Of a DNA stretch of 64,000 nt, positions 1 to 64,000 are shown one piece after another. The stretch lies in the NCBI GenBank assembly GCA_037349105.1, contig JAYJMM010000081.1, positions 1,736,001-1,800,000 on the forward strand. Direction: 5' to 3'. Positions within the stretch are counted from its first letter, which is position 1. Every line of letters begins with the position of its first letter. Origin of the DNA: Limnomonas spitsbergensis (taxonomy: Eukaryota > Chlorophyta > Chlorophyceae > Chlamydomonadales). The notes below the pieces were generated by a model that was not told where the DNA came from, did no database searches, and saw nothing but the letters and a program-made list of their open reading frames with translations. The translations under genes and the position numbers were made by a program.

Positions 1-1353
1 CAGTCGACAAGCCGTGAGCGCCAGCCCTCTAGAAACGGCTGCTGTGTGTGTGTGTGGGGGGGGGGGGCGGCGCAGCAGCAGCCGCTTGCTGCATCAGGGT
101 ATCATCAGCCACCTGAGCTGAGCGTTCAATTGTAACCAATCTTGACCCTGAATCCTAAACAATATATTGATATATACGGTATATATATATATATATATAT
201 ATATATTGATATATATATTCAAATTGGGGATGCTGCGTCAACTAGGCTGCATCCAGGAGTCGCCAGGCCCACAGCCAGCGCTTACTTCAGTGCGCAACAG
301 ACCACTACCTTGGGCGCGCTGCCGTCCACCAGTGTTGATTTTCTTGTGCATTCTACTACCTTTGGCAGGCTGCTGCCCACTAATCTTTAAACCAGGGCAC
401 AATATGCCTATGCCTTTGGCTGGCTGCCGCCTAACAGTCATAATGTCAGAGCGTACCAGACCACTACCTTGGGCAGGCTGCTGCTGCCCACCACTGTCAA
501 CTTCAGTGCGCATTATATTTTTTTTTGCAGGCCTGGGAGGCCACCACAGGGCCAATGAGGGCCAACTGTAAGCGGACAAATGCAGGAAAGTGTCAGATTA
601 CACAACTTGAGTTACCCTTTGCCGGCGTGGTAAATACTCAGTCTTGACTGGCCAACCTTGACTGGCCAACGTGTGGGCCAAGCAGCAGGGCATGCTGCAT
701 CACCCCACCCCCCCGGCTGCCATGATGTAGAAAACAAATCTACCTGGAATCTTCCTGCTGCCTAGGCACATTTGACCCTGGTACCCAGCTAAACATCCTC
801 ACAACGGTTGACCAAGCAGCTGTTTTGTTAAATTCAAAATTAAATTCAAATCGGATGTTGAGCCCTATGAATCCCTTCCCACCCTTGGCCATCCTTTTCC
901 GCAGGTATTGCATCAAATTCAAATTGGCCCAGGATCCTGTCTTGTTTTATACATTTAAATTTGATTCCTGTAAGTGTATGTCATGCTGTGGTGTGTTGAC
1001 CCTGGATGCTGTTTAGTCTGTTAAAATTTAAATAAGTTTCCTGCAATTGTATGACATGCTGTGCTGTGGCGACCCTGAATCGTGTCCTCTCAAATTTCGA
1101 ATTTCAATTTGAAGTTTGAATGCTGCACCAGTTTCGCATGCTGTGGTACGCTGACTTTGAACCATGCTTACGAAACTACTTTTGGAGATTTGAGCCTGCA
1201 CACATATATTGTATTGGTGTGCTGGCTGTAAATCCTGTGTTTGGCTGGATTTTACATGCAGGTTGTGGTTAGCAGACCAGCATTTTGAATTCAAGTTTGA
1301 ATTTGAATTATGCACAGGTATCGCACGCTGTGGTGCGTTGCAACTGCGTGCAG
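1..1353. other. Upstream sequence with degenerate repeats, no gene recognised
   Basis: No exon could be supported here. It holds a G run (about 55-67), a TA dinucleotide tract (about 172-215) and three or four degenerate copies of a unit of about 80 bp at 255-520 (key words ACCACTACCTTGGGC and GGCTGCTGCC). From about 890 to 1350 there are degenerate copies of the sequence that precedes the first recognised exon (CATGCTGTGGTGYGTTG followed by a CAG), so this looks like the intron 5' of that exon, expanded by repetition. Earlier exons of the gene are probably outside the window or not recognisable. Confidence 0.5.
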
Positions 1354-4300
1354 CCTGATGCACGGTCGGGGACCCACTTGATCAACGATGAGAATGTGTC
1401 GCTGTACATCGAGTTCAACACATCCTACCGCCTCACCGTGGAGGACACCCGGGGCATGCCCCCTTCAGAGAGAAAGGTGGACAGCCCAATCCGGCCAGGG
1501 CTCGGGGGATAGTGACCTCGGCCTTCAGCCTCGGTGATTATCCCCCTCGCCCTTGCCTTGACCTCGGGTTATAAGTTATAACCCGGTAACAGATTCGGTG
1601 ACACGATTACGCTGTACATGTTGAAGATGGGTGGCAGATTCAGAGTGCTGATGGCGATGGTGAGAGGTGATGGTGATGGTCATGAGAGAGGGGCGTCACC
1701 GGTAATAGTAGTGATTTGAACATAAAATGTTCTGTGACGGTTCTGAGATTGGGTCACACGATTACCCTATATTTGTCGAAGAGGTGTGGAAGAACCTTCT
1801 GGGGAGGAGGGCCTACCTTGCCCCTTTTTATTGAATCAGGTTTTTCAGAGTGCTGATGGTGAGAGGTGATGGCCATGAAGAGGGGTGTCACCGGCTCTAT
1901 AATTCATTTGAAAAAAACGAAACAATGTTCAGTACTGGCACTGAGATTCTCGAAAAGGGAATCTCAGTTCTACGGCGCGAAGCATTCCCGATTATCGTTA
2001 CCGAGGGGATGTTTTCGGCGAGGGGATGTTTTCGGTACCAAGCGACTGCACATGACTCACAGACGAACAATTGTTCCACGCGTGTTTGGGCACGGGCAGG
2101 TCCAGGTACCAACTAAAAATCCCGCTGGGCCTCCTCACTGCTTGCAACACGGGATGCATGAAGGAGGATTCCCTGGTGCAACCTGCTTCAAGGCAGGGCC
2201 ATTTCCCCGGATTTCCCGGGATACCTGGTAAAACCAGTTTCAATGCGGGGCCAGGCCGGGCCATTTCCCTGTCCCCCCCCCCCCCCCCCCCTCCTGACAC
2301 CCCATCCCATCCTTGCCTTCCATTCCCCCATTCATGCCCTACAGGCTGCCAGCATGGTGGATGAGGTGTGTAGCTGCCGGGTCAGTGCTCTGTTCCCCGG
2401 CACCCCATCACATCACTGCCTTTATTTCTCCGCGTTTATTGCACAAGCCGGGCCAGGCCAGTGCTCTGTCCTCCCCCCGGCACCCCATTCCCCCCTTGCC
2501 ATCGTTCATTACGCAGGCAGCCAGCATGGCGGAAGAGGTGTGTAGCTGCTGGGTCAGAGATCCCTCCTCCCCCGACACCCCATCCCATCACTTCCTTTAT
2601 TTCCCCGCGTTCATCGCACAGGCCGGGCCAGGCCAGTGCTCTTTCCCCCCCAACACCCCATCCCCCCCCTTTCCCTCCTTCACCCACATTCGTCCCCCAC
2701 AGGCAGCCAGCATGGTGGATGAGGTGTGTAGCTGCTGGGCCAGTGCCCTGCCTCCCTCCCCCGACACCCCATCCCATCACTGCCTTTGTTTCCCGCGTTC
2801 ATTGCGCAGGCAGCCAGCATGGTGGATGAGGTGTGCAGCTGCTGGGCCAGTGCCCTGCCTCCCCCCCCCGACACCCCATCCCATCACTGCCTTTGTTTCC
2901 CGCATTCATCGCGCAGGCAGCCAGCATGGTGGATGAGGTGTGCAGCTGCTGGGCTAGTGCCCAGTCCTCCCCCGCCACCCCATCCCCCCCTTGCCCTCCT
3001 TCCCCCGCATTCGTTCCCTACAGGCAGCCAGCATGGTGGATGAGGTGTGTAGCTGCTGGGCCATGGTGAACTTCCGCAAATGCTCCAGCCTCAGCAGGGA
3101 GATGACGGTCAGCGTGCCCCTCTACTTTGGGAGTTTGTACGAGCCGCAGGTAGGATAGTGGGATTTCGGTGGTTGGGGCAATTTTTGGTGTTTGGGGCAG
3201 TTTCGGTGTTAGGGGCAATTTGTTGTGCTGTAGATGTCCTTAGGACTTCCTGGTAATTCTTACGGGACCCGAAAAATGGAATTATAAACATCAGTCCATT
3301 GTGCAGGATGTTCTTCTCCATAAAAAATAAAAACAATTTATTGGAACTCTGTTTTTAATTTAGCCGGCGTAGCCTTATGAGCAAAGATAGGCTTATTTGT
3401 ATAAATTTTAGCCACCTGTATCCAGGTGGGGAGGCCCTCTACCTGTTGGGACCTAAATTGAGCCGCAAAGCGGTGTCCGCACCCCATTCTTTTTTTTAAT
3501 TTAACAAATCTATTACCTGCGGCAATTGGCCACGATTGGCTATTTAGGGAGCCTGTACCAGCCGCAGGTATGCAGCAAAGCGGGATCCGCCACGGCTCTA
3601 TTAGCTACGCTAATGGCACCAGACGGGTCGATAGTTGGGTCAGTTTCGGTTTAGGGGCAATTCGTTTGTGCTGTAGGGGTGTAGATGTACTTTATCCTCC
3701 CCTTTAATTATACAAGGTATGCAAGGTATTATTTCGATTGCTTTGACATTTTTATGATTTAAAAACATTTTTGGTAAAGGGTACGATGATGGCCACGATT
3801 TAGTTACGCCTTGTCTGGCAGCTGTGGGCATTTTGTGTGCAGCACGCCCTGTTAATCGGGCCGCCAGTTGTAGGCTGGTCATTTGTTAGTCCCAGGGGGC
3901 CTAGCGACCTGTTTAGGGTTTAGCGAGTGGTATACCACTATCAGCTACAGTTCAGCTACACTGAAAACCAGGGGCTTGTGGCCATATCACCATACCTGGA
4001 CCAGCCACAAGCCCCTGGTTTGGCCAGCCCAGCTGCTTGGGCCACCGGCCGGAGGCCAGTCCAGGTATAATGATACGGCCCAGGGGTGGCAGCGGGGCGA
4101 CCCTGAAAAGGTGGTCCCTTACCCCTCGCCTTACCCACTAAAATAAATACTGGGCCCAAGTGACCGCTGCTTAATAACTTCCCTCCCCCGTAACAGACTT
4201 TGATACACATACAAACATACGCACACAGAACATAAGGACAACCCTGGATTTTCTTAAACTATTGGAAGCACAATCAAAAGGGCTTCCTCATGTATTGGCC

Positions 4301-7300
4301 ACTCTCTCCCCTGCCACCCTAAGGTCCTTGAAAAGCTGCACTAGGCGGGGCGGAGGGGAGTCCTGGTCTGCCTTCTTCTCCTGCCCTCATGAGCAGCCCT
4401 CCCCACCCCCCCGGCTCTGCTCATCCTCTCCACTTTCACCCTCGGCTGTTCAACAAGCTATACAACAAGGGGTGGAAGAAGAATCGCCTTGCCTCCTCCT
4501 TCCACTTTCATGACTAGCCCTTCCCTCCTCACCTTCCCCGCTGCCACCCTCAGCTGCTCGACAAGCTGTACATGGAAGAGCGGAAGAAGTATCGCCTTGC
4601 CTCCTCCTTCCGCTTTCATTACTAGCCCTTCCCTCCTCACCTTCTCCGCTGCCACCCTCAGCTGCTCGACAAGCTGTACAAGGATGAGCGGAAGAAGTAT
4701 CGCCTTGCCTCCTCCTTCCACTTTCATTACTAGCCCTTCCCTCCTCACCTACTCCGCTGCCACCCTAAGCTGCTCAACAAGCTGTACAAGGATGAGCGGA
4801 AGAAGTATTGCCTTGCCTCCTCCTTCCGCTTTCATTACTAGCCCTTCCCTCCTCACCTTCTCCGCTGCCACCCTCAGCTGCTCAACAAGCTGTACAAGGA
4901 AGAGCGGAAGAGTCGCGCTTTGTCCCTTCTTCCGCTTTCATGACTAGCCCTGCCCTCCTCGCCTTCTCCGCTGCCACCCTCAGCTGCTCGACAAGCTGTA
5001 CAAGGATGAGCGGAAGAAGTATTGCCTTGCCTCCTCCTTCCGCTTTCATTACTAGCCCTTCCCTCCTCACCTTCTCCGCTGCCACCCTCAGCTGCTCAAC
5101 AAGCTGTACAAGGAAGAGCGGAAGAGTCGCGCTTTGCCTCCTCCTTCCGCTTTCATGACTAGCCCTGCCCTCCTCGCCTTCTCCGCTGCCACCCTCAGCT
5201 GCTCGACAAGCTGTACAAGGATGAGCGGAAGAAGTATTGCCTTGCCTCCTCCTTCTGCTTTCATTACTAGCCCTTCCCTCCTCACCTTCTCCGCTGCCAC
5301 CCTCAGCTGCTCAACAAGCTGTACAAGGAAGAGCGGAAGAGTCGCGCTTTGCCTCCTTCTTCCGCTTCATGACTAGCCCTGCCCTCCTCGCCTTCTCCGC
5401 TGCCACCCTCAGCTGCTCGACAAGCTGTACAAGGAGGAGCGGAAGAAGTCGCGGTTTGCCTCCTTCTTTCGCCCTCACGAGAAGCCCGTCTTCACGTTCA
5501 AGGCTGGGCCCCTCGTGGCCGCAGGAAAGGAATCGCCGCTCCTGCCCTATGCGTGAGTGATGGGGGACGGAGGGTTCGTCGGGACCCTCTGGGTGCAGCA
5601 GGAAAATAACGGCTGAGAAACCGAATCACAGGAAAGGAATGAAAAGGAAACCCTGACCCCCGAAGGCCTGGTTACAGCAAGAAAGAATGGAAAGGAAACC
5701 CCAAGTCTTGCTTGCAGGATAAAGGGATAGAAAAGGAAGCCTTGACCCTGGTCGCAGCGGGAAAGGAATTGCCGCTCCTGCCCTACGCATGGGTGATGGG
5801 GGACGGAGGGTTAGTCGGGACCCTCTGGGTGCAACAGGAGAAAAACGGTTAGGAAACCGAATCACAGGAAAGGGATAAACGCCCTAAGCCCTGCTTGCAG
5901 CAGGAATGGAATGGACAGGAAACCCTAAACCCTGTTTGAAGCAGGAATGGAAGGGACAAGAAACCCTAAGCCCTGCTTGCAGCAGGAATGGAATCGACAG
6001 GGAATCATAAACCCTGGTCGCAGCAAGAAAGGAATCGCTGCTCCTGCCCTATGCGTGAGAGATGTGGGCAGAGGTTAGGAGGCTAACCTGCCGTCCATGG
6101 GCTCATTCTTTAATCACGATAGCTCTTCCCAACCCCAACATCTGCACATGACATATTTCCATCCTAAACCCTTAACCGTATAGCCCCCCCCGTCCCAACA
6201 TCTGAACCCCCGTCCCAACATCTGTTCATGACATAGTTCCACCCTAAACCCTAAACCCTATAGCCCCCCCTTCCCAACATCTGCACATGACATAGTTCCA
6301 CCCTAAACCCTAAACCCTATAGCCCCCCCTTCCCAACATCTGCACATGACATAGTTCCACCCTAAACCCTAAACCCTATAGCCCCCCCCCGTCCCAACAT
6401 CTGCACATGACATAGTTCCACCCTCAACCCTAAACTGTATAGCCCCCCCCGTCCCAACATCTGCACATGACATGGTTCCACCCTTAACCCTTAACCGTAT
6501 AGCCCCCCCCGTCCCAACATCTGTACATGACATAGTTTTCCAATCCCTTTAAGCGTTTGTAGATGACAGCCTGCTGCCAATACCTTACCATGCGTGCGAG
6601 TGCAGGACTGCAGGCTGTAAGGTGTGCCAACGTTTGAAACATCGCAAATTTGGCTCTGGCCCTTAGCTGCAATGTTTCCTTCGAACTCTTCGCACCCCAG
6701 TGCCGCCAATACCTTCCCAATTTCCCATGCGGGCGAGTGCAGACTGTAGGAAGAAAGAAAGCTACGCCCTATTAGGGCCTGGAGGTAAAGGAAACTGCAC
6801 AGCTTGGGGCCGTAGCCACATCCGTGCCGTTACCATAAGGCTGTTAGGTGTGCCAACGTTTGTAACGGCGCGGATGTGGCTCTGGCCCCAAGCTGCGCTG
6901 TTTCATTCGCACTCTTCACTCCCCAGTGGGCGTTGTTTCTCTCTTTCTTTGCCAACGTTGGGGGGGGGGGTACAACTGCATCTCCCCGCAAATCTTGCAG
7001 ACATGTTTCCAATGTCGTTTGCTTCGCCAGCCTCCTCTATCCCCCTGGCCCTCTCATGCACCACCCACATCTCCTGCTCGCTTAAGGTCAAGGGTTGTAA
7101 GTTTGTAACCCTTTCTGACCCTGATCCCTAGACCCTCCTGCCCGCTTAGGAAACCTGAACGCTAAACCCTATTCCTTGCTACCCGCAGCTACATGCCCAC
7201 CACGCTGCTGGGCATGACCCACCTAGCCAACCTGCTGGCAGCGTACCGCCTGACGCTGGCACTACAGCTCGGCAGGCAGGCCAGTCCGTTTGCCCCGCTG

Positions 7301-9074
7301 TCGGACCCGGTGCTGGCCGCCTTTCCCGCGGTGCTAGCGGACCATCATTTGCTCTCCGAGGTGCTGCTCAAGTGGAAGGACTGGACGGAGAAGATGTCGT
7401 GGGCGGACGACGTGAGTCATAGGCCTAAACCTGAACCATATCCTTTAACCTGAACCCAAACTCTAGGCTAGAAGCTTGACCTTGTGTAGGAGGTGCTCTT
7501 CAAGTGGATGGACTAGACGGAGAAGATGTCGTGGGCGGACGATGTGCCATAGCCTCATTGGCCTGACCCCTAACCTCTAGACTAGGACCTTGACCTTCTT
7601 TAAGAGGTGCTCCTGAAGGACTGGATGGAGATGATATCTTCACATCACTCTTCTCTCCCTCTCAGGCTGGTTGCTTGAGCCCCAAGGTGCTTCCTCCCAT
7701 CGCCTCCCTGGTTGAGGCGTTCCGGCGCTGCTGCATGGCTGTGGCCCCTCTGGTGAACTGCGTCACACTGCCTCCACGGCATATCAACAACTTCGTCGAG
7801 TACCAGGTGGGAGCAGGGTGGACGTGTGTCAAGACTGAGTGGGAGCAGGGTTGTCAAGCACCCGGTGAAAGCTTGGGAGCATACAGGAAAACGTTGTTTG
7901 ATGTGACCAGGTGGGAGCAGGATTGAAGAGTGTCAAGCCTGATGTAGGGGCAGGATAGAAGTGTGTCAAGAACCAAGTGAAAGCTGTTAGGCATGCAGTA
8001 GAATTTGCTGTTTTATGTGACTAGGTGGGAGCAGGTTTGAATGTGTCAAGTTCAACGTGGGAGCACGGACACAGGCCCTTGCCACGGCCTGCAGCAGCTT
8101 GCACAGATGCCAGGTTTCATGACTCTGTGTGTGTGTGGGATTTGTTAAAACACTTTGAAAATACATTTTGAAATATCACGAACATTTTTGCCTGCAGGGC
8201 TATATACGGCCTGAAGCTGGTTCAGCAGTTTTGCCAGGTCATGAATTTGCTTTTTGTTAAAAACTAAACGCAACCACCGAAAAGCCCATTATTTCGTCGT
8301 GTACCGGTGTCATATGTGAATGACTCATGATTTTAAAACGCCTGCAGGGCCACCGGCTGAAGCTTGTTCAGCAGTTCTGCCACGTCATTGACCCCAAAAC
8401 CAACAAGGTCGTCGCTGCACGACACGCGGTGGAGCCTCTCAGCCACTCTGGATTTGAATTCCTGCACAAGCCTTTCGACACCAGCGAAGTGAGTGTCCAA
8501 ACAGGATCCAGGGTTTAAACAGGATCCAGGGTTTAAACAGGATCCAGGGTTTAAACAGGATCCAGGGTTTAAACAGGATCCAGGGTTTAAACAGGATCCA
8601 GGGTTTAAACAGGATCCAGGGTTTAAACAGGATCCAGGGTTTGAACAGGATCCAGGGTTTAAATGGGATCCAGGGTTTAAACGGGATCCAGGGTTTAAAC
8701 AGGATCCAGGGTTTAAACAGGATCCTGAACCCTCAACGCCAGCAAGGGGACCGTCTAAAGAGGGGGCTGCATCAGTAGTATGAGTAGGATATTCAAGGCA
8801 TTGTTAATTGTGTAATGATTCACTGGCTGTTGCATGCCCCTGACTGCTGATCCTGGATGAGCACCCTTTCCTCCTCCTACCCTTTCACCTTGGGCACGGC
8901 CCTGATCATGCTCGCCGTAGCGCCGGTGCATGCCCCTGACTGCTGATCCTGGATGGAAGCTTTATCATTCTCGTGCCCTTCTCTTACCTTGGACCCCCCT
9001 GACTCTGCTGGACACAGGTGCGAGTTTGCCTTGGAAACAGGCTGGAGAAGGGGACGACATTCCTCAAGTACTGA
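1354..9074 (+). CDS. Unrecognised multi-exon protein, 3' part (seven exons)
   Basis: The exons are 1354-1476, 3024-3149, 5413-5552, 7189-7411, 7666-7806, 8348-8488 and 9018-9074 (TGA at 9072-9074). All have AG/GT borders, and the phases (0,0,2,0,0,0) join into 316 codons without a stop. The 5' end is missing, because the first exon seen begins after an acceptor. I do not recognise the family. Visible features are a basic segment starting LLDKLYKEERKKS, a leucine/alanine-rich helical stretch (TTLLGMTHLANLLAAYRL), a cysteine pair in FRRCCMAV, and a conserved-looking NNFVEYQ/GHRLKLVQQF junction between the fifth and sixth exons. No signal peptide or clear membrane span is seen. Every intron carries tandem copies of one of its own splice junctions. 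The last exon (VRVCLGNRLEKGTTFLKY, stop) is in phase but short, so it is less certain. Confidence 0.75.
1585..1915 (+). repeat. Two-copy imperfect tandem duplication in intron
   Basis: Two diverged copies of a unit of about 165 bp share the words ACACGATTAC, CAGAGTGCTGATGG, GAGAGGTGATGG and GTCACCGG. They lie in the intron between 1476 and 3024. Confidence 0.6.
2341..3023 (+). repeat. Acceptor-side exon copies (five decoys)
   Basis: Five upstream copies of the start of the exon at 3024 sit near 2341, 2518, 2701, 2811 and 2915. Each contains a pyrimidine-rich tract, CAG, and about 35 bp encoding AASMVDEVCSCW. They are nearly identical to the true exon start, but none continues into the rest of the exon (MVNFRKCSSLS..). 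Only the 3'-most acceptor gives the full exon. Confidence 0.85.
4439..5412 (+). repeat. Acceptor-side array, about 107-bp unit, 9 decoys
   Basis: The exon start CTGCTCGACAAGCTGTACAA recurs at about 4446 (degenerate), 4554, 4662, 4770, 4878, 4984, 5092, 5199 and 5307 before the true exon at 5413. Spacing is 106-108 bp. Each copy keeps the tract CTTCTCCGCTGCCACCCTCAG, so each has a complete-looking 3' splice site. The array gives spurious open frames on both strands. Confidence 0.9.
5745..6075 (+). repeat. Donor-side copies of the exon ending at 5552
   Basis: The exon end GGAAAGGAATCGCCGCTCC..TATGC with its donor GTGAGTGATG recurs near 5756-5815, where the donor is mutated to ATGGGTGATG, and near 6005-6060 (GCGTGAGAG). 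Between them are AGCAGGAATGGAA repeats. These are decayed duplications of an exon end plus its 5' splice site. Confidence 0.75.
6160..6530 (+). repeat. Telomere-motif minisatellite, about 65 bp
   Basis: About six copies of a unit containing CCCTAAACCCTAAACCCTAT, AGCCCCCC, CCCAACATCTGCACATGAC and ATAGTTCCAC. It lies inside an intron and is not a chromosome end, because coding exons continue on both sides. Confidence 0.85.
6600..6960. repeat. Palindromic MITE-like element, copy 1
   Basis: Positions 6750-6836 and about 6860-6950 are imperfect reverse complements. The left arm has GAAAGAAAGCTACGCCC.. and CAGCTTGGGGCC; the right arm has GGCCCCAAGCTGCGCTGTTT and TCTCTCTTTC. They enclose a spacer of about 25 bp. 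A more decayed half copy precedes it at 6608-6700. Related half or full copies occur at 24998-25318, 25683-25768 and 42955-43046, so this is a dispersed family. No coding capacity. Confidence 0.7.
7480..8345 (+). repeat. Decayed donor- and acceptor-side exon copies
   Basis: Near 7490-7556 and 7590-7635 are two copies of the end of the 7189-7411 exon (GAGGTGCT.CTCAAGTGGA.GGACT..ACGGAGAAGATG). Near 7805-8050 the junction at 7806 (CAGGTGGGAGCAGG) recurs several times with the tail GTGTGTCAAG. At 8195-8245 there is a decoy of the 8348 acceptor (TGCAGGGC..GGCCTGAAGCTGGTTCAGCAG). Confidence 0.75.
8494..8725 (+). repeat. 18-bp tandem repeat after a donor site
   Basis: About 13 near-perfect copies of AAACAGGATCCAGGGTTT begin 6 bp after the donor at 8489. 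The array is open in one frame but is intronic. Confidence 0.95.
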
Positions 9075-11389: not shown

Positions 11390-11482
11390 GCATGCCCGAA
11401 TGAGGGGCATGTCTTTGTTGGGCAGTGATCCTTGAGTCCCCTTGAACCAGCTGAATTTGCTGACGCCCCCTTATGTAAATGA

Positions 11483-20354: not shown

Positions 20355-20356
20355 GC

Positions 20357-21240: not shown

Positions 21241-21242
21241 GC

Positions 21243-22126: not shown

Positions 22127-22130
22127 ATGA

Positions 22131-33000: not shown

Positions 33001-33236
33001 CTGACAAGACATTGCGTAAGTAACCGTCCTCCGTCCGGCTCCTCAGTGAGCATCCGGAGGGCTCCCACCTGAAGCGCTCAAAGCCTTTGTGGCTCTTCCC
33101 CCGGCATGCCCCCTGCCCTAGGAAGTATCTGTCGGCGCACTGGAACGGTCGGTACTCGGGGCCGGCTGCGTGCACGCTCCATTCCCCGATGCCATAGTTA
33201 CAAGCGGGCGAGTTCTTGTCAGCAGCAGCTACACCT
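29361..33236 (-). CDS. TBL/PMR5-family O-acyltransferase (PC-esterase domain)
   Basis: The exons in gene order are about 33236-33001, 32638-32395, 32097-31920, 31523-31349, 30232-30054 and 29441-29361 (TGA). All internal phases (1,2,0,1,0) fit. Exon 1 holds the PMR5N domain: CNYGIGEWSV, FQCADRYFLGQGACRG and FRWEPSGCSL. The GDSL block is GKHVAFIGDSLSRNHFMSMV, with the nucleophile serine in GDS. FNVALFSVGRWYG replaces the usual GHWW; SSPAHF and LLDITHLSKLRPDAHP follow. The last exon gives DCSHFCLGSVSDAWAEIFL, which carries the second catalytic motif DxxH. Plant relatives acetylate wall polysaccharides in the Golgi; that is family knowledge. The N-terminal membrane anchor expected of the family was not found, because the 159-bp array precedes exon 1. 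Introns carry junction-repeat arrays at exons 1 and 5. Confidence 0.93.
30233..31230 (-). repeat. Acceptor-side 85-bp array before TBL exon 5
   Basis: The plus-strand word CATGTCTGATGGGGCCCAGG recurs with an exact 85-bp spacing at 30366, 30451, 30536, 30621, 30706, 30791 and 30876. Degenerate copies lie at about 31010, 31085 and 31210, and the true junction at 30226-30233 has CATCACGTCTGATGGGGCCC. Each unit carries the acceptor CAG and the first bases of exon 5. Confidence 0.93.
31349..32394 (-). other. Introns 2 and 3 of the TBL gene
   Basis: The intervals 31524-31919 and 32098-32394 lie between exons 2, 3 and 4. They contain purine-rich runs on the plus strand (GGAGAGGGGGGGGGAAAC near 31640) that act as pyrimidine tracts in the gene's direction. 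No array of note. Confidence 0.5.
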
Positions 33237-55500: not shown

Positions 55501-58500
55501 GATATTTTATTAATAGGGGGATATTTTATTTTTAGGGGGATATGTTATTTATAGGGGGATATGTTATTTATAGGGGGATATGTTATTTATAGGGGGATAT
55601 GTTATTTATAGGGGGATATGTTATTTATAGGGGGATATGTTATTTATAGGGGGATATGTTATTTATAGGGGGATATGTTATTTATAGCGGGATATGTTAT
55701 TTATAGGGGGATATTTTATTAATAGGGGGATATTTTATTTTTAGGGGGATATTTTATTAATAGGGGGATATTTTATTTTTAGGGGGATATGTTATTTATA
55801 GGGGGATATGTTATTAATAGGGGGATATGTTATTTATAGGGGGATATGTTATTTACAGGGGGGATATGTTATTTATAGGGGGATATGTTATTTATAGGGG
55901 GATATGTTATTTATAGGGGGATATGTTATTTTTAGGGGGATATGTTAGTAATAGGGGATATGTTATTTATAGGGGGATATGTTATGTATCCCCCGCTCGA
56001 CCCCCAAAAAGGTCATTCATTCGGCGCGGTATCCTGCCACCTCGGGTGACCTGGCATGCGATCATTTTCGCGTTGCATAGCAATGAAACGCAGCATCATA
56101 AGACACACAGCATATTATTTGCAATGATCTAAGACAGAGCACGGGAGTCGGCGAATGCAATCAGAATCACGACTGGGTGAACAGGCTGGCTGAGCGCGAC
56201 ACCATGCGGCATTCAGTGCAACGAGGCGTTGAAACACTTGCGAACACACACGACGTTTGATCCAACATAAAACCTGTGATTGTGCTGTCACCATTTGGAC
56301 TGTGCTTTGCACGCGAGAGACTGAGATGCCTGTTTGGGCAGGCTGTGAGGGCATGAAGTGCGCGACGTAGCAACACGCCTCATTGAGACCGACCAGGCTT
56401 TCAATTACAGACCATTCATATACCGGTATGGGAATGTAATAGACAGCCTTGTTGAACACGCGCTAAGTCGAGAGATGTCATGCATGGATAGCTGTTTCGG
56501 TGACGAGAGATATCACCCCAGTTGACGAGAGATATCACCCCAGTTGACGACAGATATCACCCCCGTTGACGAGAGATATCACCCCAGTTGACGACAGATA
56601 TCAGCCCAGTTGACGACAGATATCAGCCCAGTTGACGACAGATATCACCCCAGTTGACGACAGATATCACCCCAGTTGACGGCAGATATCAGCCCAATTG
56701 ACGATAGATATCACCCCAGTTGACGACAGATATCAGCCCAGTTGACGACAGATATCAGCCCAGTTGACGACAGATATCAGCCCAGTTGACGACAGATATC
56801 AGCCCAGTTGACGACAGATATCAGCCCAGTTGACGACAGATATCACCCCAGTTGACGACAGATATCACCCCCGTTGACGACAGATATCACCCCCGTTGAC
56901 GACAGATATCAGCCCAGTTGACGACAGATATCAGCCCAGTTGACGACAGATATCACCCCCGTTGACGACAGATATCACCCCCGTTGACGACAGATATCAG
57001 CCCAGTTGACGACAGATATCAGCCCAGTTGACGACAGATATCACCCCCGTTGACGACAGATATCAGCCCAGTTGACGACAGATATCAGCCCAGTTGACGA
57101 CAGATATCACCCCCGTTGACGACAGATATTAGCCCCGCTGACGACAGATATCACCCCCGTTGACGACAGATATCACCCCCGTTGACGACAGATATCACCC
57201 CCGTTGACGACAGATATCACCCCCGTTGACGACAGATATCACCCCAGTTGACGACAGATATCACCCCCGTTGACGACAGATATCACCCCCGTTGACGACA
57301 GATATCACCCCCGTTGACGACAGATATCACCCCCGTTGACGACAGATATCACCCCCGTTGACGACAGATATTAGCCCCGCTGACGACAGAAGCCCTGCTG
57401 ATCACGCGTTAAATCGAGAGATGCCATGCACATATAGCTGTCACGGCGACGAAAGATATCGCCACCGCTAACGACTGATATACCCCGCTGACGAGAGAAA
57501 TCACCCCCCGAGACGACTGCTACAACCTGTTGACGACAGATATCACCTCTGTTGACGACAGATATCACCCCAGTTGACGACAGATCGATCAGCCTCACAT
57601 CAGCGCTCGACTTGCAGAAAAAAACTGCTCGACTGAATAACGGGCCATTATTCTCGGTATCCCCCCGGGGTCGTGCTATAACGTATACTTATAGGGGGAT
57701 GTGTTTTTAATAGGGGGATATGTTATTTATAGGGGAAAGCAAGGCGCATCTACAGAGTATATTTATTATATCCACGCACGTCATCTCCTTGCATGCACTG
57801 ACATGCACAGGACACACCCTACCACCCAGTAATCTCAACCCCACAACACACTCTGCCACTCGCATATCCCACCCATCAGCCACCCCACCACACACCCTAC
57901 CACTCACCCAACCCCACCCCATCAGCCACCCCACCACACACCCTACCACTCAGCCAACCCCACCCCATCAGCAACCCCACCACACACCCTACCACACACA
58001 CAACCCCACCACGTCAGCAACCCCACCACACACCCTACCACTCACCCAACCCCACCACACACACAACCCCACCACACACACAACCCCACCACATCAGCAA
58101 CCCCACCACACACCCTACCACTCACCCGGCCCCACCCCATCAGCCACCCCAACACACACCCTACCACTCACCCAACCCCACCCCATCAGCCACACCACCA
58201 CACACTCTACCACTCACCCACCATAAATCATCAGTCACCCCACCACTCACCCTACCACTCACTCAACCCCACCTCATCAGCCACCCCACCACACACCCTA
58301 CCACTCACCCAACCCCACCCCATCAGCCACCCCATCACACACCCGACCATTCACACAACCACACCCCATCAGCCACCCTATCACACACCCTACCACTCAC
58401 TCAACCTCACCTCAGCAGCCACCCCATCACACACCCTACCACTCACACAACCCCACATCATCAGCCACCCCACCACACACCCTACCACTCACCCAACCCC

Positions 58501-61500
58501 ACCCCATCAGCAACCCCACCACACACCATACCACTCACACAACCACACCCCATCAGCCACCCCATCACACACCCTACCACTCACACAACCCCACCCCATC
58601 AACAACCCCATCACACACCCTACCACTCACCCAACCTCACATCATCAGCCACCCCATCACACACCCTACCACTCACACAACACCACCTCATCAGCCACCC
58701 CACCACTCACCCAACCCCACCCCATCAGCAACCCCACCACACACCCTACCACTCACCCAACCCCACCCCATCAACCACCCCATCACACACCCTACCACTC
58801 ACACAACCTCACCTCATCAGCCACCTCATCACACACCCTACCACTCACACAACCCCACCTCATCAGCCACCCCATCACACACCCTACCACGCACACAACC
58901 CCACCTCATCAGCCACCCCATCACACACCCTACCACTCACACAACCCCACCTCATCAGCCACCCCATCACACACCCTACCACTCACACAACCCCACCTCA
59001 TCAGCCACCCCATCACACACCCTACCACTCACACAACCCCACCTCATCAGCCACCCCATCACACACCCTACCACTCACACAACCCCACCTCATCAGCAAC
59101 CGCACCACACACCCTACCACTCACCCAACCCCACCTCATCAGCCACCCCATCACACACCATACCACTCACTCAACCCCACCTCATCAGCCACCCCATCAC
59201 ACACCCTACCATTCACTCAACCCCATCTCATCAGCCACCCCACCACACACCCTACCACTCACCCAACCCCACCTCATCAGCCACCCCATCACACACCCTA
59301 CCACTCACACAACCCCACCTCATCATCACCCCATCACACACCCTACCACTCACTCAACCTCACCTCAGCAGCCACCCCATCACACACCCTACCACTCACC
59401 GAACCCCACCTCATCAGCAACCCCACCACACACCCTACCACTCACACAACCCCACCCCATCAACAACCCCATCACACACCCTACCACTCACACAACCCCA
59501 CCTCATCAACCACCCCATCACACACCCTACCACTCACCTAACCCCACCCCATCAGCAACCCCACCACACACCCTACCACTCACCCAACCCCACCCCATCA
59601 GCCACCCCACCACACACCCGAACCACCCCATCAGCCACCCCACCACACACCTTACCACAGAAACACCCCAACATTCACTCACCCCATCATTCATCCCACC
59701 ACCGCCACCCCCCATGCACCCCCCCCACTAACCCCCCATGCACCCCCCATGCACCCCCTCCCCCACTAACCCCCCATGCACCCCTAACTGCAGGGTGCTG
59801 CCACCGCCGCCGCATCCGCGTCGCACGGCTCCTACTCGGCTGTTCCCCTCCTTGGAGCCGGCGGCGCCGTCGTCGGGCTGCTTGGCGTCGACACGGTCAC
59901 GCAGGCGGTCATGGCGGGCGGCATTGTCGGCGGGTCCAGCGGGCAGATCGGCTTACCACAGTTTGAGTACATCAAGGAGCTGGCGGCGGCGGCGGGACGC
60001 GCGATCGCGCGGGACCAAGAGGCACTGAATGATATCATGCTCAAGGTACGCTGCTCCCTAAGCCTCTGAAACCCACACTGCACGCTGTACCCTTAACCCT
60101 GGACGCCGACCCTAAACCCTGAACGCTGTACTCTCAACCCTGAACGCTGACTATAAACCCTTAGCCCTGTACTCTTAACCCTGAAAGCTGACTCTCAACC
60201 CTAAACGCTGTGCTCTTAACCCTGAATGCTGGCTCTTAACCCTAAACGCTGTACCCTCAAGCCAGAGCGCTGACTCTAAACCCTTAACGCTGTACCCTTA
60301 ACCCTGAACTGCTCATCGCAATGTGATGGTATGGAAGACCTCGCGGTGGCTGCAGACCGCACTAGGGTTGAAACTTGCAACTTGCAAAGGATCGGGCAGC
60401 GCTCGCTGACAGTATGCTGGTACGAAAGGTGTGAAAGGTACAAAAGACCTAGACCATAAAAACCCCCAAACCCTCACCCCCTCAAACACAGGCCCGAAAT
60501 CCCATACCGGTGGTATTTTTTTAACCGCTCCTTGCAATACGAGCACTTCAAAACCTTCCGGAGGCGGCAGGCCTCTTTGTAAGATTGTGGGTGCCTCCTG
60601 GATTTACAAGATTGCGAGAGATCAGGAGGCACCCAAAGTATCATGATCAAGGTATGCTTAACCCTTCACTCCAAACCCTTTTTGCCCTGGCCCTACACCA
60701 TTCACCCCGAGCCCTAAACCCCCTCTTCCCCTCAAGCACAAGCCCGAATTCCCCTACCGGTAGTGTTTTTTAACCGCCCCTCGCAATGCGAGCACTTCAT
60801 AACCTCCCAGAGGCGGCAGGCCTCTCTGTTGCAAGAGGAGGCACCCAAAGTAGCATGATCAAGGTATGCTTAACTCTTCACTCCAAGCCCTTTTTGCCCT
60901 GGCCCGAGTTCCCGAAACCATTCACCCTCGAGCCCTAAACCCTTTTGTCAAAGATCTGGAAGCGCTTAGGGTTTTGTGGCCAGAAGGTACAGAGCGGGTT
61001 CAAAGGTATGATAAACAGTGTGAATGGGTAAAACATGAAAATGTTCATACTTTCGGGTCCATCCCGAGGATAAGCATGATATCCTCAGGTCATGCCCGAA
61101 AACTGAGAAATGAAAACTGAAACACGACAGTCTGCCCTCTTCCCAAATCTGGGCACAGGCATCCCTGCTTCGGGCCGGTGATGAGGTGGAAGACGTACCG
61201 CTGGATCTAGATCCGGAGCAGTACGCGGACATGCCCGGAGGGCTGCGTATGTTCAAGGACGCGCTCAGCATCATGAAGGGCCTCAACGATGCCTCGCTGC
61301 TGGCGCTACAGAATGTGGACAAGTGAGTGTGTGTTGCACAAGTGTCAATATAGCCTGTTTGACAAGTGAGTGTGTGTTGCAAAAGTGTCAGCCCAGTATC
61401 GTTTTCAGCCCTATATCTCACCTGTTTGAAAGCCTAAGGCAGTGTAAACTGGAATTAGAGGTAAAAATGAGGTTTGGGGGGGGGGGGGGAGGCATTTCTG

Positions 61501-64000
61501 CAACCGGGGCCCCTCACCCCCACACACTTGTGCTTAGGAAGAGTTCATCACTCGCTTTAGTGAGGGAGTAGAGTGACTCTACCCCCTCACCCCCTCCAAG
61601 AGGCCCGCGGACGCCGCCCTGGCAGTGCTGAAGTCCATTTTGACGGTGGTGGGCAAGCCAGGAGATGGCAAATGGTCACCGTGCCCTGAACCATTCACCC
61701 ACCCATTCACTCCGCACCTTAAAACACCCACTCTCCCTCCCCCCACCCCACAGGCCCGATGATGCTACCCTGGCTGTTCTAAGGTCTATCTTGGCGGTGG
61801 TGGGCGAGCTAGGGGATGGCGAGTGGTCGCACGTGCGTACCAAGTTGACACGAGATCTGGTTGATAAACTCTTGGCTATGGATCCAAAGGTGGGTCTTAG
61901 GGTGTAGGTTAAGTGGTTAGGGTTAGGGTGGGTGTGACGCGGGAGCTTGTAGACCAGCTGCTGGGCGTCGACCCAAAGGCACGTTTGAAAAAGACTGTGA
62001 GCTCAGAGTGGCAGGAGTTGTGCCAATGGTGCGCACCCTACACACCCTCAAAGATGCACTCTATAAACCCTACAAACCCTGTTTATTTTGGCAGCCTGCC
62101 CGGGAGCCGCCAGGATGCATGCCTTGAGTTCTGCCGGATGATGCAGTCCCTGTTAGTGCTGTACAGCTGCTTAAACCGTAAACCCTGCTTTCCTCGCAGT
62201 CTGCCTGGGCGGAGTGGCAGGAATTCTGCGAAAAGATGAAGCCGCTGTTGGTGCTGTACAGCTGCTTAACCCTAACCCTAACCCCTCAACTCAACGTCTC
62301 TTTTCCTCGCAGTCTGCCTGGGCGGAGTGGCAGGAGTTCTGCCAGAAGATGAAGCCGCTGTTGGTGCTGGAGGGTGAGGTGGGCCGTGCCGACAGCTCGA
62401 TGCAGCAGGAGGATGCCTCATCGTCGGCCAAGGATGGCGCGGGGGATAGCGGGTGGGCCACAGCACAGGCGCAGCCTGTGACCAAGGCCATGTCCAGGTA
62501 AGCTGGTGTTGCAGTGGTTGTTGCTATTGCTGCAGCTGCTGTTGCTCTCGTTGCAGTGGTTGTTGTTGGTGTTGTTGCTGCTGCTGCTTTTGATGTAACC
62601 ATTGCTGCTGCTCCTGCTGTTCTTGTTGCTCTGGTTCCAGCTTCTGTTGCTGTTGCTGCTGCTGCTGCTGCTGTTGCAGCTGTTGTAGCAGTCGGTCCTG
62701 CTGCAGCTGCTGCTGATGTTGCAACTGTTGTTGCTGCTGCAGCTGCTGCTGATGTTGCAGCTGTTGTTGCTGCTATTGCTGCTGCTGCAACTACTGTTGC
62801 CGTTGTTTTTGTTGCTGCTGCTGTTGTTGCAGCTGATGCTGTTGTTGCTGCTGCTGTTTTAGCGTAGCTAGTGGCCATGGCCCGGTCAGCTACTGTGCAT
62901 GTTGCTGTTGCTGTTACAGCTGGACAGGCTGCTGTTGCTGCTTCTACATAGTAAACTGTTGTTAGTGTTGCTACAGCAGAGTAAAAGTCTTTGAAGGTAG
63001 GATCCTCCCACCTTCCACCACTCACCTCACACCTCTTCCGGCCCACCCCTCCCTCTTCTGGTCCACCCCTTCACTCTTCCGTCCCACCCCTCACTCTTCC
63101 GACCCACCCCTCACTCGCCAGGTGGCTGATCGCAGTCAGGAAGATAAGTGCGGCCAATGCACTGCTTAAGTCACTCGAGGCGAGGATGGAGCGTGCCAAC
63201 GCGGCGCTCCTGCGGACGTTCCAAGGCGACGGGTCTTCTGCCCTGTCAGAGCTGCGATCGTACCGAGTACCGCCCAAGATCACATTCCAAGTCCTGCAGG
63301 TAGGCAGTTTATCTTGCAGGGTTGTAAGTGTGACCTTGCAAGTCCATCAGATGGTCAGTCAAGTGTGGGCTTCCGGAAGCGTGGCCTGCCAGATCAGGAG
63401 TGGGCAGTGGCGGCGGCGCATGAGGCGTTAGGAGCCGCTGGGCAATATGGGGGAATCGAGTGCAGCTTGGCTGTTTTGCCATGATCGAATCACTCTGGGG
63501 TACCGGTACTAGGGGCTGGGATGTACAGCCTGGCTGCTTCTGTTTGCTGTCTTGTGTTCCTAGTTAAGGGTTTAGGGGCGGGGGAAAGGATGTAGAGCCT
63601 GGCTGTTTGTCGTCTTGTGCTTTTAGTTTAGGTTTTAGGGTTTAGGGGCAGGGATGTAGAGCATGGCTGCTTCTGTTTGCCGTCTTGTGCCCCCACCTCC
63701 AGATGTGGATTTTGGGTGTAAGTCCCATCCAGCGTCTTCTTCACACATCCCATCCCATGCTTCCCATCAGCTGCAAAATGTGTGGACCTGGGCATGAAAG
63801 GCCCAGGCTTTGGCTTTGTGGTTGAAAGGCATGCTTGTGTTGTTGTGGAATGCATGCATGCTGTATAAAAAATGATTGTGATAAAAATGCTCTTTATGGA
63901 ATCCTTGTCTGCTTCCTCGCTTATGAAGAGCATGCATGTTTCGTCTCAGGTGGCACTCCAGCTGTGCGGCTGCAGCGAAGACGACTGCCACAACTGGGGC
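37552..64000 (+). CDS. Large coiled-coil / GAF-like / dynein-stalk-like protein, 5' part
   Basis: Nineteen exons, all AG/GT and phase-matched, give 820 codons with no stop: 37552-37623 (ATG), 37699-37788, 38949-39023, 39952-40038, 41389-41604, 43070-43168, 46292-46375, 47170-47271, 47850-47984, 49667-49807, 50843-50961, 52270-52354, 54410-54598, 59794-60045, 61159-61322, 61754-61889, 62313-62497, 63122-63299, 63950 to the window end. The N-terminus is MTSRPTSAPIYGMLKPHK. Exons 6-9 form a coiled coil (AKAEWEEELQRQLAAARELT, LEELSSQMKSISEDKERWVQ). Exons 13-14 resemble a GAF fold (GSYSAVPLLGAGGAVVGLLG). Exons 15-18 resemble the dynein heavy-chain stalk (PDDATLAVLRSILAVVGE, a W, LVDKLLAMDPK, KAMSRWLIAV, EARMERANAALL). 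No ATPase motif is seen in this part. A ciliary or microtubule role is inference, and the name of the family is not known to me. Confidence 0.85.
38740..38948 (+). repeat. Decoy acceptor before exon 3
   Basis: GATGCAGGGTTTCAATCTCG at about 38859-38880 mirrors the true junction GGTGCAGGATTTTGACCTGA at 38943, including the following GGCCAGGGTTG against GGGAAGGCTG. It is one degenerate acceptor-side copy. Confidence 0.55.
39164..39187 (+). repeat. CAG trinucleotide repeat, 8 copies
   Basis: (CAG)8 in the intron after exon 3. It is not in the coding sequence as modelled. Confidence 0.95.
39230..39850 (+). repeat. Three degenerate copies of an approx. 190-bp unit
   Basis: The words AAAAAGGCTTG and GCGACGGGTGGGGG recur at about 39256/39310, 39456/39510 and 39650/39710. 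A shared middle portion reads like CCTTT..GCATCAGTGT..CCACC. Intronic. Confidence 0.7.
40440..41388 (+). repeat. Telomere-motif intron (CCCTAAA-rich)
   Basis: GGTTTAGGGTTTAGGGTT occurs at 40444-40461. From about 40480 and especially 40980-41380 there are diverged units around AAAAGGCCTAAACCCTAAAC and AACAGACTTAAACCCTTAAC. The array runs directly into the acceptor ACCACTCAG of exon 5. Confidence 0.85.
41505..42667 (+). repeat. Donor-side array of exon 5, 117/119-bp units, 10 copies
   Basis: The 3' end of exon 5 (SLRARTWKDAFPLADLLRGL..YLLSQ) with its donor GTGAGG and about 20 bp of intron occurs ten times. Units begin (GCCAGCCTGC) at 41521, 41638, 41757, 41876, 41993, 42112, 42231, 42350, 42467 and 42584. 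Steps are 117 or 119 bp, depending on TGCCTCTTT against TGCTACTCTTT. Every copy keeps the GT donor. The donors at 41722 and 42196 would keep the downstream reading phase; the others would shift it. Confidence 0.95.
42955..43046. repeat. MITE-like half copy 4
   Basis: TAACGGCGCAAACGAGGCC, CATGCCGCGCTGTTTCCTTA and CTTACTTTC match the right arm of the family at 24998-25318. A decoy of exon 6 (GCAGATGACAAAAAGCAG at about 42942) abuts it, before the true exon 6 at 43070 (ATGACCAAGGGGCAGCAG). Confidence 0.65.
43797..45958 (+). repeat. 15-bp satellite, about 145 copies
   Basis: Continuous tandem array of AGAACCAGGAAGGGC with point variants (GGTAG, GGACAG, GGCATAACC). Higher-order blocks repeat, for example the AGAACTAAGAGGGGC variant at about 44285, 45364 and 45785. 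Since the unit is 15 bp it is open in several frames on both strands (RTRKG on plus, LVLPF and GSALP on minus). It lies wholly in the intron between exons 6 and 7. Confidence 0.97.
46376..46480 (+). repeat. Donor-side copy of exon 7
   Basis: The last 54 bp of exon 7 (GAGTGGGAG..CTTCAGAG...AAGCATGTG with donor GTGAG) recur at about 46421-46474, followed by the same CAGATATTTTG words. Confidence 0.85.
46690..47169 (+). repeat. Acceptor-side array before exon 8, four decoys
   Basis: Copies of TCAGCTGGAGGAACTCTCCA followed by ATGA..GACATCCACGTTTAGG occur near 46695, 46817, 46936 and 47052, with a period of about 118 bp. They include the upstream words TGTTTGAAATGCTTGAATA. Decoys end in CCACGTTTAG, whereas the true exon continues with ATGAAGTCCATCTCAGAGGA. 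Confidence 0.88.
47580..48345 (+). repeat. Acceptor- and donor-side copies around exon 9
   Basis: Upstream, CGCTGTGTGTAGACCATGGCCATGCTT at about 47688 and a further decayed copy near 47540 mirror the exon 9 start at 47850. Downstream, the exon end (GCTCCAAGGCCATGGC .. AAGGACTCA .. GATATGGAG plus donor GTGAGG) recurs near 48034-48110, 48166-48242 and 48285-48345, increasingly decayed. Exon 9 has arrays on both sides. Confidence 0.85.
48375..49275 (+). repeat. 37-bp minisatellite built on TTTAGGG
   Basis: About 25 copies of TTTAGGGTTTCAAACATGTG followed by GAGGCCTAG, with variants (ATATGGAGG, GTTATGG, GTTAAGG). Each unit holds one or two TTTAGGG motifs. Intronic, between exons 9 and 10. Confidence 0.95.
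49808..50720 (+). repeat. Donor-side array of exon 10, about 74-bp units
   Basis: Around eleven copies of the exon 10 end (TVPGAHAYVAQLTSK) with donor GTGGGT, then GGTTTGGGTTTGGGGTTTCC. The first five are nearly perfect (from 49850, step about 77 bp) and the later ones decay gradually up to about 50720. Confidence 0.93.
50975..51455 (+). repeat. 13-bp satellite, about 36 copies
   Basis: Tandem GGGGCAGAGTGAA with A/G alternation (CAGAGTG or CAGGGTG), starting 13 bp after the donor of exon 11. Open on the minus strand as a SAPSPCPFTLPLH-like repeat; not a gene. Confidence 0.95.
51750..52269 (+). repeat. Acceptor-side array before exon 12
   Basis: The true exon 12 start (CCCGCTGCCTGTTGGTGCTGG) recurs near 51660, 51758, 51870, 51980 and 52135, each after a CCTGTAG or CCTGCAG acceptor. 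Each is followed by GACAAGGGTACCAAGGAAGT and GTAGCTGAA words. The true copy at 52270 continues into GACACCAAGGAGGCGCTGATG. Confidence 0.9.
52360..52790 (+). repeat. Approx. 72-bp repeats after exon 12 donor
   Basis: About five copies of a unit with GTTGGGACAGTGAGTTGGAC and AGGTGCCAGGGAGGAGTGGA. The unit is related to the exon 12 junction CTGGACAGGTGGGAGG, so it is another donor-side expansion. Confidence 0.85.
52780..53345 (+). repeat. G-rich repeat with long G runs
   Basis: Units around GGAACGGGCAGAGGGGGG and GGAATGCTTGGAAG in higher-order blocks of about 180 bp. There are G runs of 8 to over 20, for example at about 53315-53338. Strong G-quadruplex potential on the plus (transcribed-sense) strand. 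Confidence 0.9.
53385..53680 (+). repeat. 18-bp GGAAGGAAGGAGGGAGGG satellite
   Basis: About 15 tandem copies of a purine-only 18-bp unit with GTGGG/GGGGG variants. It could form triplexes or G-quadruplexes. Confidence 0.95.
53813..54409 (+). other. End of intron 12, small repeats
   Basis: TTTTTCCAG at 53804-53812 followed by a short open stretch could be an alternative exon (CTACGAGGCCACCATCAGCA), but its phase does not fit exon 12. At 54155-54290 there are three copies of a unit of about 55 bp (TCTGGAGATCTACAGCCA). Directly before exon 13 the sequence is AAACCCTAAACCCTAAACCC. Confidence 0.5.
54604..54850. repeat. TACGG-rich dispersed repeat and exon 13 decoy donor
   Basis: GATGCGGTGCACTTCTTCCAGGTGCG at about 54724 duplicates the exon 13 end and donor. 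Next to it is GGTTACCTGGTACGG, then TACGGTCAAATGGTACG, the inverted form of the segment at 9100-9215. CCCCTTCTGGGGGGGCTTCG and CCTTGGGGGGAA nearby form C/G-rich hairpins. Confidence 0.65.
55255..55990 (+). repeat. 19-bp satellite GGGGGATATGTTATTTATA
   Basis: About 38 copies with few variants (ATTTTATTAATA, TAGCGGG). The same unit reappears at 57690-57740, on the far side of a different 1.7-kb block, so the array appears to have been split. Confidence 0.95.
55990..57690. other. 1.7-kb block interrupting the 19-bp satellite
   Basis: A unique-looking part (about 55990-56460) is followed by a 22-bp satellite and a second diverged copy of its leader (57400-57590: AAATCGAGAGATGCCATGCA beside TAAGTCGAGAGATGTCATGC at 56465). 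Edges read GTATCCCCCGCTCGACCCCC (left) and GGTATCCCCCCGGGGTCGTG (right), suggesting inverted ends. No coding capacity was recognised. Confidence 0.5.
56495..57395 (+). repeat. 22-bp satellite with GATATC core
   Basis: About 40 copies of a 22-bp unit with GTTGACGACAGATATCA and then CCCCAG, CCCCCG or GCCCAG. The three endings occur in runs, showing block duplication. It is spacerless, so it is not a CRISPR array. Confidence 0.96.
57830..59660 (+). repeat. 46-bp satellite, about 40 copies
   Basis: Units with CCCATCACACACCCTACCAC, TCACACAACCCCACC and TCATCAGCCA. A C/A-only strand bias (almost no G) persists over 1.8 kb. It runs to about 130 bp before exon 14. Confidence 0.95.
60046..61158 (+). 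repeat. Telomere-like repeats and exon 14 donor decoys
   Basis: At 60060-60310 CCCTAAACCCTGAACGCTG-type words repeat about ten times. Two copies of the exon 14 junction ATCATGCTCAAGGTACGC occur as AGTATCATGATCAAGGTATG (about 60637) and AGTAGCATGATCAAGGTATG (about 60848), each with a shared tail (TTCACTCCAA.CCCTTTTTGCC). Confidence 0.8.
61320..61410 (+). repeat. Donor-side duplication of exon 15
   Basis: GACAAGTGAGTGTGTGTTGC followed by an AAGTGTCA word occurs at 61318 and again at about 61362, a duplication of about 44 bp that includes the donor. Confidence 0.85.
61590..61990 (+). repeat. Copies of exon 16 on both sides
   Basis: At about 61600-61680 an acceptor-side copy (GAGGCCCGCGGACGCCGCCC .. 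TGGCAGTGCTGAAGTCCATT) is about 75% similar to the start of exon 16. At about 61932-61980 the exon end recurs (GACGCGGGAGCTTGTAGACC .. GGGCGTCGACCCAAAGG). Confidence 0.75.
61991..62312 (+). repeat. Acceptor-side copies of exon 17
   Basis: Near-perfect copy at about 62198-62255 (CGCAGTCTGCCTGGGCGGAG .. GAAGCCGCTGTTGGTGCTG), plus decayed copies near 62003 and 62090. The true exon begins at 62313. CCCTAACCCTAACCCC lies between. Confidence 0.88.
62500..62990 (+). repeat. GTT/GCT trinucleotide-rich intron
   Basis: About 480 bp made almost wholly of GTT, GCT and GCA triplets, directly after the donor of exon 17. It is open on both strands (poly-Val/Ala on plus, poly-Gln/Ala/Thr on minus), with longest pure runs near 62650-62690. 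Confidence 0.93.
63300..63949 (+). other. Last complete intron
   Basis: Contains three loose copies of a unit with GGATGTAGAGCCTGGCTG and TTGTCGTCTTGTGC near 63520, 63590 and 63655, with TTTAGGGTTTAGGGG. No other feature seen. Confidence 0.55.

Follow-up and report, generated by a model that had tools for sequence, protein, structure and literature searches.

Gene Models in and around the Window

The window, i.e. the whole stretch of 64,000 nucleotides of Limnomonas spitsbergensis DNA that was analyzed, corresponds to positions 1736001–1800000 of contig C81 in a 260-Mb genome of 124 contigs. Six genes were modelled by hand (49 exons and 43 introns), and each was checked for GT-AG borders and for one open spliced frame. 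The window contains gene A on the forward strand (6 exons modelled), a PC-esterase gene on the minus strand (5 exons; Pfam PF13839 at 2.1e-29), a GNAT gene (3 exons; PF00583), and gene C, which continues with one exon across the window's end and one exon beyond it, giving 20 modelled exons. A gene encoding an RRM protein (5 exons; PF00076) lies 14.9–18.8 kb upstream of the window, and a sterol reductase gene (10 exons; PF01222 at 1.1e-134) was modelled on contig C20. The sample is non-random: the window genes prompted the finding, and the sterol reductase gene was picked for its coding signal, its arrays being visible at the same time.

A Pfam search gave no family for gene A, and for gene C there was no Pfam match and there were only insignificant PDB matches; for neither gene was homology support found beyond the open frames. 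The predicted sterol reductase aligns with few gaps to solved delta-14 sterol reductases (9l5r, 3.3e-98; 4quv, 4.7e-91), including one 5-residue gap relative to 9l5r that adjoins the join of exons 4 and 5. Because the alignment to solved enzymes spans exon joins, the borders of this gene are supported by homology as well as by an open frame.

Positions 11490–22130 of the window are retroelement-like, with similar stretches near 11490 and 20365 (by eye), an 886-bp direct repeat at 20113–22126, open frames at 12901–15297, 15095–17437, and 17434–19332, and repeats of 54, 75, and 87 bp. Intron 6 of gene C includes about 144 copies of a 15-bp unit at 43797–45958 (TRF).

Introns Contain Tandem Copies of Single Splice Junctions

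Many of the modelled introns contain tandem or near-tandem copies of sequence that crosses one adjacent splice junction, on either the acceptor or the donor side (Table 1). In a strict test, which required an alignment to extend at least 12 nt to either side of the junction and the other copy to lie within the same exon-intron-exon stretch, copies were found for 21 of 86 junctions (11 donor, 10 acceptor), spread over 20 of the 43 introns. In a looser test, in which alignments were grouped into families and a family was counted if it included at least 12 nt of exon, 23/49 exons and 25/43 introns are affected (exons per gene: sterol reductase 6/10, RRM 0/5, A 4/6, C 11/20, PC-esterase 2/5, GNAT 0/3). 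Junction copies thus recur outside the window, in the sterol reductase gene on contig C20. The periods of the junction families range from 61 to 250 bp, and among the 43 introns no family overlaps both junctions of one intron.

Table 1. Gene C, junction copies, and contrasting arrays in the window
Feature	Positions	Strand	Details
Gene C	37552..63299	+	18 window exons, all GT-AG; single open frame of 803 aa
Acceptor-side copies of exon 3024-3149 (gene A)	2284..3063	+	Units ~76-175 bp; 5 decoy AGs, 5/5 intact; TRF + self-alignment
Acceptor-side array of exon 5413-5552 (gene A)	4305..5490	+	108 bp x ~9.6; 10 decoys, AG intact in 9; TRF + self-alignment
Donor-side copies of exon 5413-5552 (gene A)	5510..6078	+	Self-alignment
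Donor-side copies of exon 7189-7411 (gene A)	7358..7629	+	132 bp; self-alignment
Acceptor-side copy of exon 8348-8488 (gene A)	8190..8388	+	Spacing 150 bp; self-alignment
Coding arrays, for contrast	13797..15035	+	Units 75 and 87 bp (multiples of 3); within open frame 12901-15297 of the retroelement-like stretch
Acceptor-side array, exon with first base 30250 (PC-esterase gene)	30202..31242	-	TRF + self-alignment
Acceptor-side copy of exon 31349-31523	31483..31783	-	Self-alignment
159-bp array near acceptor of exon 33001-33228	33220..34683	-	~9 copies; exon share ~10 nt (by eye); excluded from junction arrays
Donor-side array of exon 41389-41604 (gene C)	41507..42672	+	117-119 bp x ~10; 8 decoy GTs, 8/8 intact; TRF + self-alignment
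Donor-side copy of exon 46292-46375 (gene C)	46324..46525	+	102 bp; self-alignment
Acceptor-side array of exon 47170-47271 (gene C)	46622..47202	+	~117-123 bp; TRF + self-alignment
Acceptor-side copies of exon 47850-47984 (gene C)	47393..47898	+	150-154 bp; self-alignment
Donor-side array of exon 47850-47984 (gene C)	47895..48319	+	121 bp; self-alignment
Donor-side array of exon 49667-49807 (gene C)	49759..50724	+	94 bp x ~10; TRF + self-alignment
Acceptor-side array of exon 52270-52354 (gene C)	51595..52314	+	101-134 bp; TRF + self-alignment
Donor-side copy of exon 54410-54598 (gene C)	54582..54771	+	Spacing 147 bp; self-alignment
Decayed donor-side copies of exon 59794-60045 (gene C)	60003..60942	+	Period 250 bp; under strict-test threshold; partly by eye
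Acceptor-side copy of exon 61754-61889 (gene C)	61584..61836	+	151 bp; self-alignment
Acceptor-side copies of exon 62313-62497 (gene C)	62126..62369	+	Self-alignment

An earlier note on this DNA had described copies across a single splice junction, and TRF and self-alignment recover tandem or near-tandem copies at 11 of the 13 places that it listed. The array that it placed at 33237–34990 shares only about 10 nt (by eye) with the modelled exon start at 33228, so that it lies within the intron or, at the most, reaches the junction; the repeat at 61320–61410 has an exon content of about 5 nt by eye, under the 12-nt threshold. The fraction of affected exons in the window is about half, not two-thirds (16 of the 32 exons modelled there: A 4/6, exons 1–18 of C 10/18, PC-esterase 2/5, GNAT 0/3). 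Nor do the copies occur in every multi-exon gene except the GNAT gene, as had been proposed: none of the 5 modelled exons of the RRM gene is affected, its last intron having four short acceptor-like matches in the looser decoy search described below, and none of the 12 junctions of six uncurated exons on contig C100 is crossed. At each copied junction the site used in our models is the 3′-most acceptor or the 5′-most donor, as the note had stated; the open frames support this, but they are ambiguous at three donors of gene C.

Junction Copies Compared with a Length-Matched Null

For comparison with chance, each array (units of at least 40 bp) was collapsed to one unit, the intron length before array growth being the proper reference. 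Under this null 26 of 49 families lie at junctions compared with 15.2 expected (P 0.0005), 22 of 38 compared with 10.8 at a mean identity of at least 76% (P 0.0001), 11 of 22 compared with 5.0 at an identity of at least 80% (P 0.002), and 26 of 58 compared with 17.1 when short-period arrays are retained (P 0.004). Overall, the length-matched comparison gives a 1.5- to 2-fold junction excess (P 0.0005–0.004; P 0.0001–0.004 over most identity cut-offs), a result that varies with the labelling of families and with the ancestral intron length assumed. In a profile of the retained copies, repeat coverage peaks at the junction (0.23 versus 0.10 in the intron interior), as it does for matches of at least 85% identity (0.07 versus 0.02), and arrays cluster in some genes (C, A, and the sterol reductase). 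The excess, the coverage peak, and the clustering would all be accommodated by a targeted process, in which junctions, or transcription, R-loop, or spliceosome activity there, provoke local tandem duplication more than elsewhere in the intron.

We nevertheless consider such targeting unlikely. Young families (identity at least 85%) show no significant excess (3 of 8 versus 2.0 expected, P 0.32), nor do alignments of at least 85% identity under an earlier, stricter labelling (6 of 21 versus 3.6, P 0.13), and the stricter labelling as a whole gives 20 of 58 versus 17.4 (P 0.25). Older junction copies may stay detectable for longer because the exon is constrained. Exon overlaps of the units in the 26 junction families span 17–98 nt and are evenly spread (KS p = 0.33, with four overlap fractions capped at 1); with unit ends at no fixed offset, a fixed breakpoint at the junction was rejected. 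The 23 uncurated exons examined on contigs C20, C81, and C100 likewise show no excess, with 9 of 46 junctions crossed versus 28 of 130 intron control points, in a comparison that favors the controls since the arrays were left uncollapsed. This set leaves out a repeat frame, the retroelement, and any exon no more than 400 bp from a curated one; two of its 23 exons, which supply 2 of the 9 hits, consist of simple repeats and are probably not real exons. Finally, a simulation of blind duplication, described below, matches the data from introns of 250–300 bp. A modest junction excess is therefore possible, but the claim that copies lie at junctions far more often than expected at random is not established by the length-matched null or by the simulations. 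That impression of a strong excess rests on an uncollapsed comparison, in which 26 of 49 families contrast with 6.4 expected; uncollapsed repeat coverage itself is higher in introns (0.55) than at junctions (0.24).

The broader proposal that a lineage-wide junction-amplifying process, perhaps template switching linked to transcription or to the spliceosome, drives intron growth, with AG|GT donor copies being harmless as stepwise ratchet points, appears quite improbable to us. A genome-wide junction excess in young arrays, if true, would implicate a mutational mechanism tied to splice junctions.

Simulation of Blind Duplication

In the simulation, tandem duplications arose at random, those wholly within exons or spanning a whole intron were rejected, and introns and third codon positions mutated; 16 replicates of 43 introns were measured by the same procedure as the real data, with deletions absent from the scheme. 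Ancestral introns of 200, 250, 300, and 400 bp gave mean junction shares of 0.64, 0.55, 0.47, and 0.38, and 21.9, 19.1, 15.9, and 13.7 strict junctions of 86, respectively, compared with 21 observed. The observed share, 26/49 (0.53) or 26/58 (0.45) depending on labelling, falls within the ranges obtained from 250-bp (0.41–0.68) and 300-bp (0.36–0.61) introns; a 400-bp start falls short, with 0.53 being reached in only 1 of 16 replicates. The simulated introns (median 419–611 bp) and families (33–36) remain below the real values (886 bp; 49–58). Lower duplication rates fell short of the data, with 11–13 families per 43 introns and junction shares of 0.44, 0.31, and 0.22 from 300-, 450-, and 600-bp introns.

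The eight repeat-free introns have a median length of 287 bp, compared with about 1.0 kb for repeat-bearing introns and 886 bp for all modelled introns, and intron medians of 198–343 bp are given for six species, Chlamydomonas and relatives, in the excerpted text of PMC8226300. Given the simulated junction shares and these medians, a blind process would be enough if the introns began at about 250–300 bp. The simulation is a demonstration of the sufficiency of blind duplication, not proof of it.

Decoy Sites Are Strong, and Decoy Copies Drift

A looser search for decoys, with scoring matrices built without the site being tested, identified 84 decoys at 26 junctions (a different set, from a different search, from the 26 junction families). 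GT or AG is kept in 72 of the 84, a proportion biased upward because copies found by similarity tend to have intact splice sites. Of these 72, 49 equal or exceed the true site in score, and at least one such decoy is present at 18 of the 26 junctions. At the exon at 49667–49807 the modelled true donor, GTTGGT, scores 6.0, which is less than all eight of its decoys (6.6–11.3). As the decoys are often as strong as the true site, strength cannot explain site choice. The true splice site is probably chosen by position, and pairing of the nearest acceptor and donor to give the shortest exon would be the rule; exon definition, as described in the excerpted text of PMC3488318, would yield such a choice. 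As many as ten consecutive sites compete, many of them equal to the true one in strength, with the outermost probably still being used, so that the arrays, e.g. the donor array of the exon at 49667–49807, provide a natural test of whether the spliceosome selects sites by position or by strength.

Codon positions distinguish the outermost copy from the others. The true copy and its decoys differ at 13.7%, 10.5%, and 21.6% of first, second, and third codon positions (166/1213, 128/1219, and 264/1220), and the third-position rate is higher than the average for the other two positions in 20 of 22 cases (Wilcoxon P 0.0004), the cases being 22 of the 26 decoy junctions after three without family overlap and one without a countable difference were left out. 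Among the decoys themselves, variation is nearly flat over codon positions (9.0%, 7.5%, 10.3%). A rougher pairwise comparison, made without realigning the copies, gave 8.4%, 8.0%, and 18.6% for true versus decoy copies and 10.3%, 7.9%, and 14.7% among decoys. The pattern is close to the two-to-one ratio that results from an exon changing only silently and decoys changing everywhere, and suggests that the coding role belongs to the outermost copy and that the decoys drift. Identity to the true copy declines with distance in 8 of the 11 arrays having three or more decoys, as if the exon end were being renewed or were a conserved seed.

Selection might retain strong and intact decoys because they serve as alternative donors or acceptors, or as AG|GT ratchet points in stepwise splicing, and so regulate transcripts or add to their diversity. 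The retention of GT or AG and strengths equal to those of the true sites fit this idea, as does the AG|GT motif at 20 of 36 donor decoys, which would permit harmless stepwise removal. However, AG|GT is no commoner in decoys than in true donors (31 of 43), the retention carries the upward bias noted above, and the decoys show little codon-position constraint. Extension of the exon to the decoy leaves the frame open in only 6 of 84 cases, and both open and in phase in 3 of 84. At the donors of the gene C exons at 41389–41604, 46292–46375, and 54410–54598 the nearest decoy does keep an open frame, so that frame by itself does not decide the true site there. Overall, a function for the decoys appears distinctly doubtful; alternative splicing, of which the arrays had been proposed to be a source, is unsupported by frame or stop content and was rejected on these grounds.

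It is very improbable that the arrays reflect wrong exon borders or assembly artefacts. The borders were modelled from genomic sequence, and neither gene A nor gene C is supported by homology; however, spliced frames are open in all six genes, one gene aligns to a solved enzyme across its exon joins, the differences between true and decoy copies are in excess at third positions, and most copies differ by 2–30% from the true one and are hardly an assembler's invention.

The notion that the arrays record intron birth through tandem duplication of an exonic AGGT site, a route described for Drosophila in the excerpted text of PMC2891723 and in keeping with AG|GT at 31 of 43 true donors, is scarcely credible, as it predicts an intron start like the next exon start and an intron end like the previous exon end, whereas donor-acceptor similarity is found in 0 of 43 introns and the units carry intron-specific sequence.

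A Proposed Model of General Duplication Filtered by Selection

The likely explanation is a general process of tandem duplication that is purged in exons and tolerated at junctions by shortest-exon splicing. Units of about 60–250 bp would be tandemly duplicated and amplified in non-coding DNA by slippage or unequal exchange. Duplications internal to an exon would be purged unless they kept the frame, while one across a single junction would leave one complete exon and push the extra copy into the intron. Such a duplication would survive because the closest acceptor and donor would be paired over a short exon, and outer decoys ignored even if equally strong. The decoy copies, presumably neutral, would later drift and then be re-amplified, and introns would have grown in this way from about 300 bp to about 1 kb. 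Because the units are a third to half of the proposed ancestral intron length, a large share of arrays would cross junctions without any targeting.

Periods of the junction families are unconstrained by reading frame (remainders of 0, 1, and 2 on division by three in 10, 12, and 4 families), while the few coding arrays in nearby open frames repeat every 75, 87, or 54 bp, each divisible by three. The even spread of unit ends, the arbitrary junction periods, and the multiples of three in open frames together fit one general duplication process filtered by selection. Of the origins suggested in the earlier note, slippage or duplication damage is well supported by the drifting decoys, the stops in the extensions, and the coding periods in multiples of three, whereas a process that amplifies splice junctions is not needed, given the even exon share and the match with blind simulation. 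Tandem duplication filtered only inside exons would represent a concrete route to intron lengthening. The notable point is that many strong and apparently tolerated decoy junctions lie beside the true ones.

Comparison with Known Systems

Intronic minisatellites and other intronic tandem repeats have units of tens to hundreds of base pairs, in arbitrary periods, with diverging copies that drift. The arrays described here share these properties but differ in that their units often hold a strong splice site and 17–98 nt of coding sequence, and in that the array end is pinned to a constrained exon.

Proto-splice-site intron gain (excerpted text of PMC2891723) also involves tandem duplication of exonic sequence with a splice motif; there the exonic site gives rise to both borders of a new intron, whereas here one side of an existing intron grows longer, in line with the lack of donor-acceptor similarity in the 43 introns. 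The dual-specific AGGT arrays of polyubiquitin genes (excerpted text of PMC10809524) are similar in having tandem splice-competent AGGT motifs within one gene. Each of their repeats is an entire coding monomer and the sites take part in splicing, whereas the units here combine exon fragments with intron sequence, mostly contain stops, and provide putative decoys. Introns of Chlamydomonas and its relatives are likewise long for genome size, and their medians are close to those of the repeat-free introns here; in contrast, the modelled introns as a whole have a far longer median, and copied junctions are not mentioned in the excerpted text of PMC8226300. Among the matches listed in our literature search, copied junctions do not come up in titles or abstract openings; this is much too small a basis for claiming their absence from print.

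Other Repeats and a Gene-Dense Stretch

A cysteine-rich gene on the minus strand at ~25.5–28.0 kb of the window carries arrays of 59 bp × 4 and 61 bp × 2 (27605–27848 and 25441–25565) in near-identical, coding-looking sequence, and these could be further junction arrays. Identification of this gene as a pherophorin was considered and set aside, three pieces having no Pfam match.

Other stretches of the genome contain repeats of different kinds. A 50-bp satellite with at least about 160 copies occupies positions 2024–10000 of stretch L016, and an in-frame tandem repeat encoding a repeated MQPRRQRWFFIQGI-like peptide is present at 9151–10000 of stretch L005 and 1–639 of stretch L002. Positions 300001–340000 of contig C30 are densely packed with genes: on the two strands together, the 40 kb hold 36 ORFs of 200 aa or longer. 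Matches to RNA polymerase Rpb1 domain 1, a ResIII/SNF2-type helicase, and a DDE transposase were obtained for three pieces; from this content, the stretch or the contig may be derived from a giant virus.
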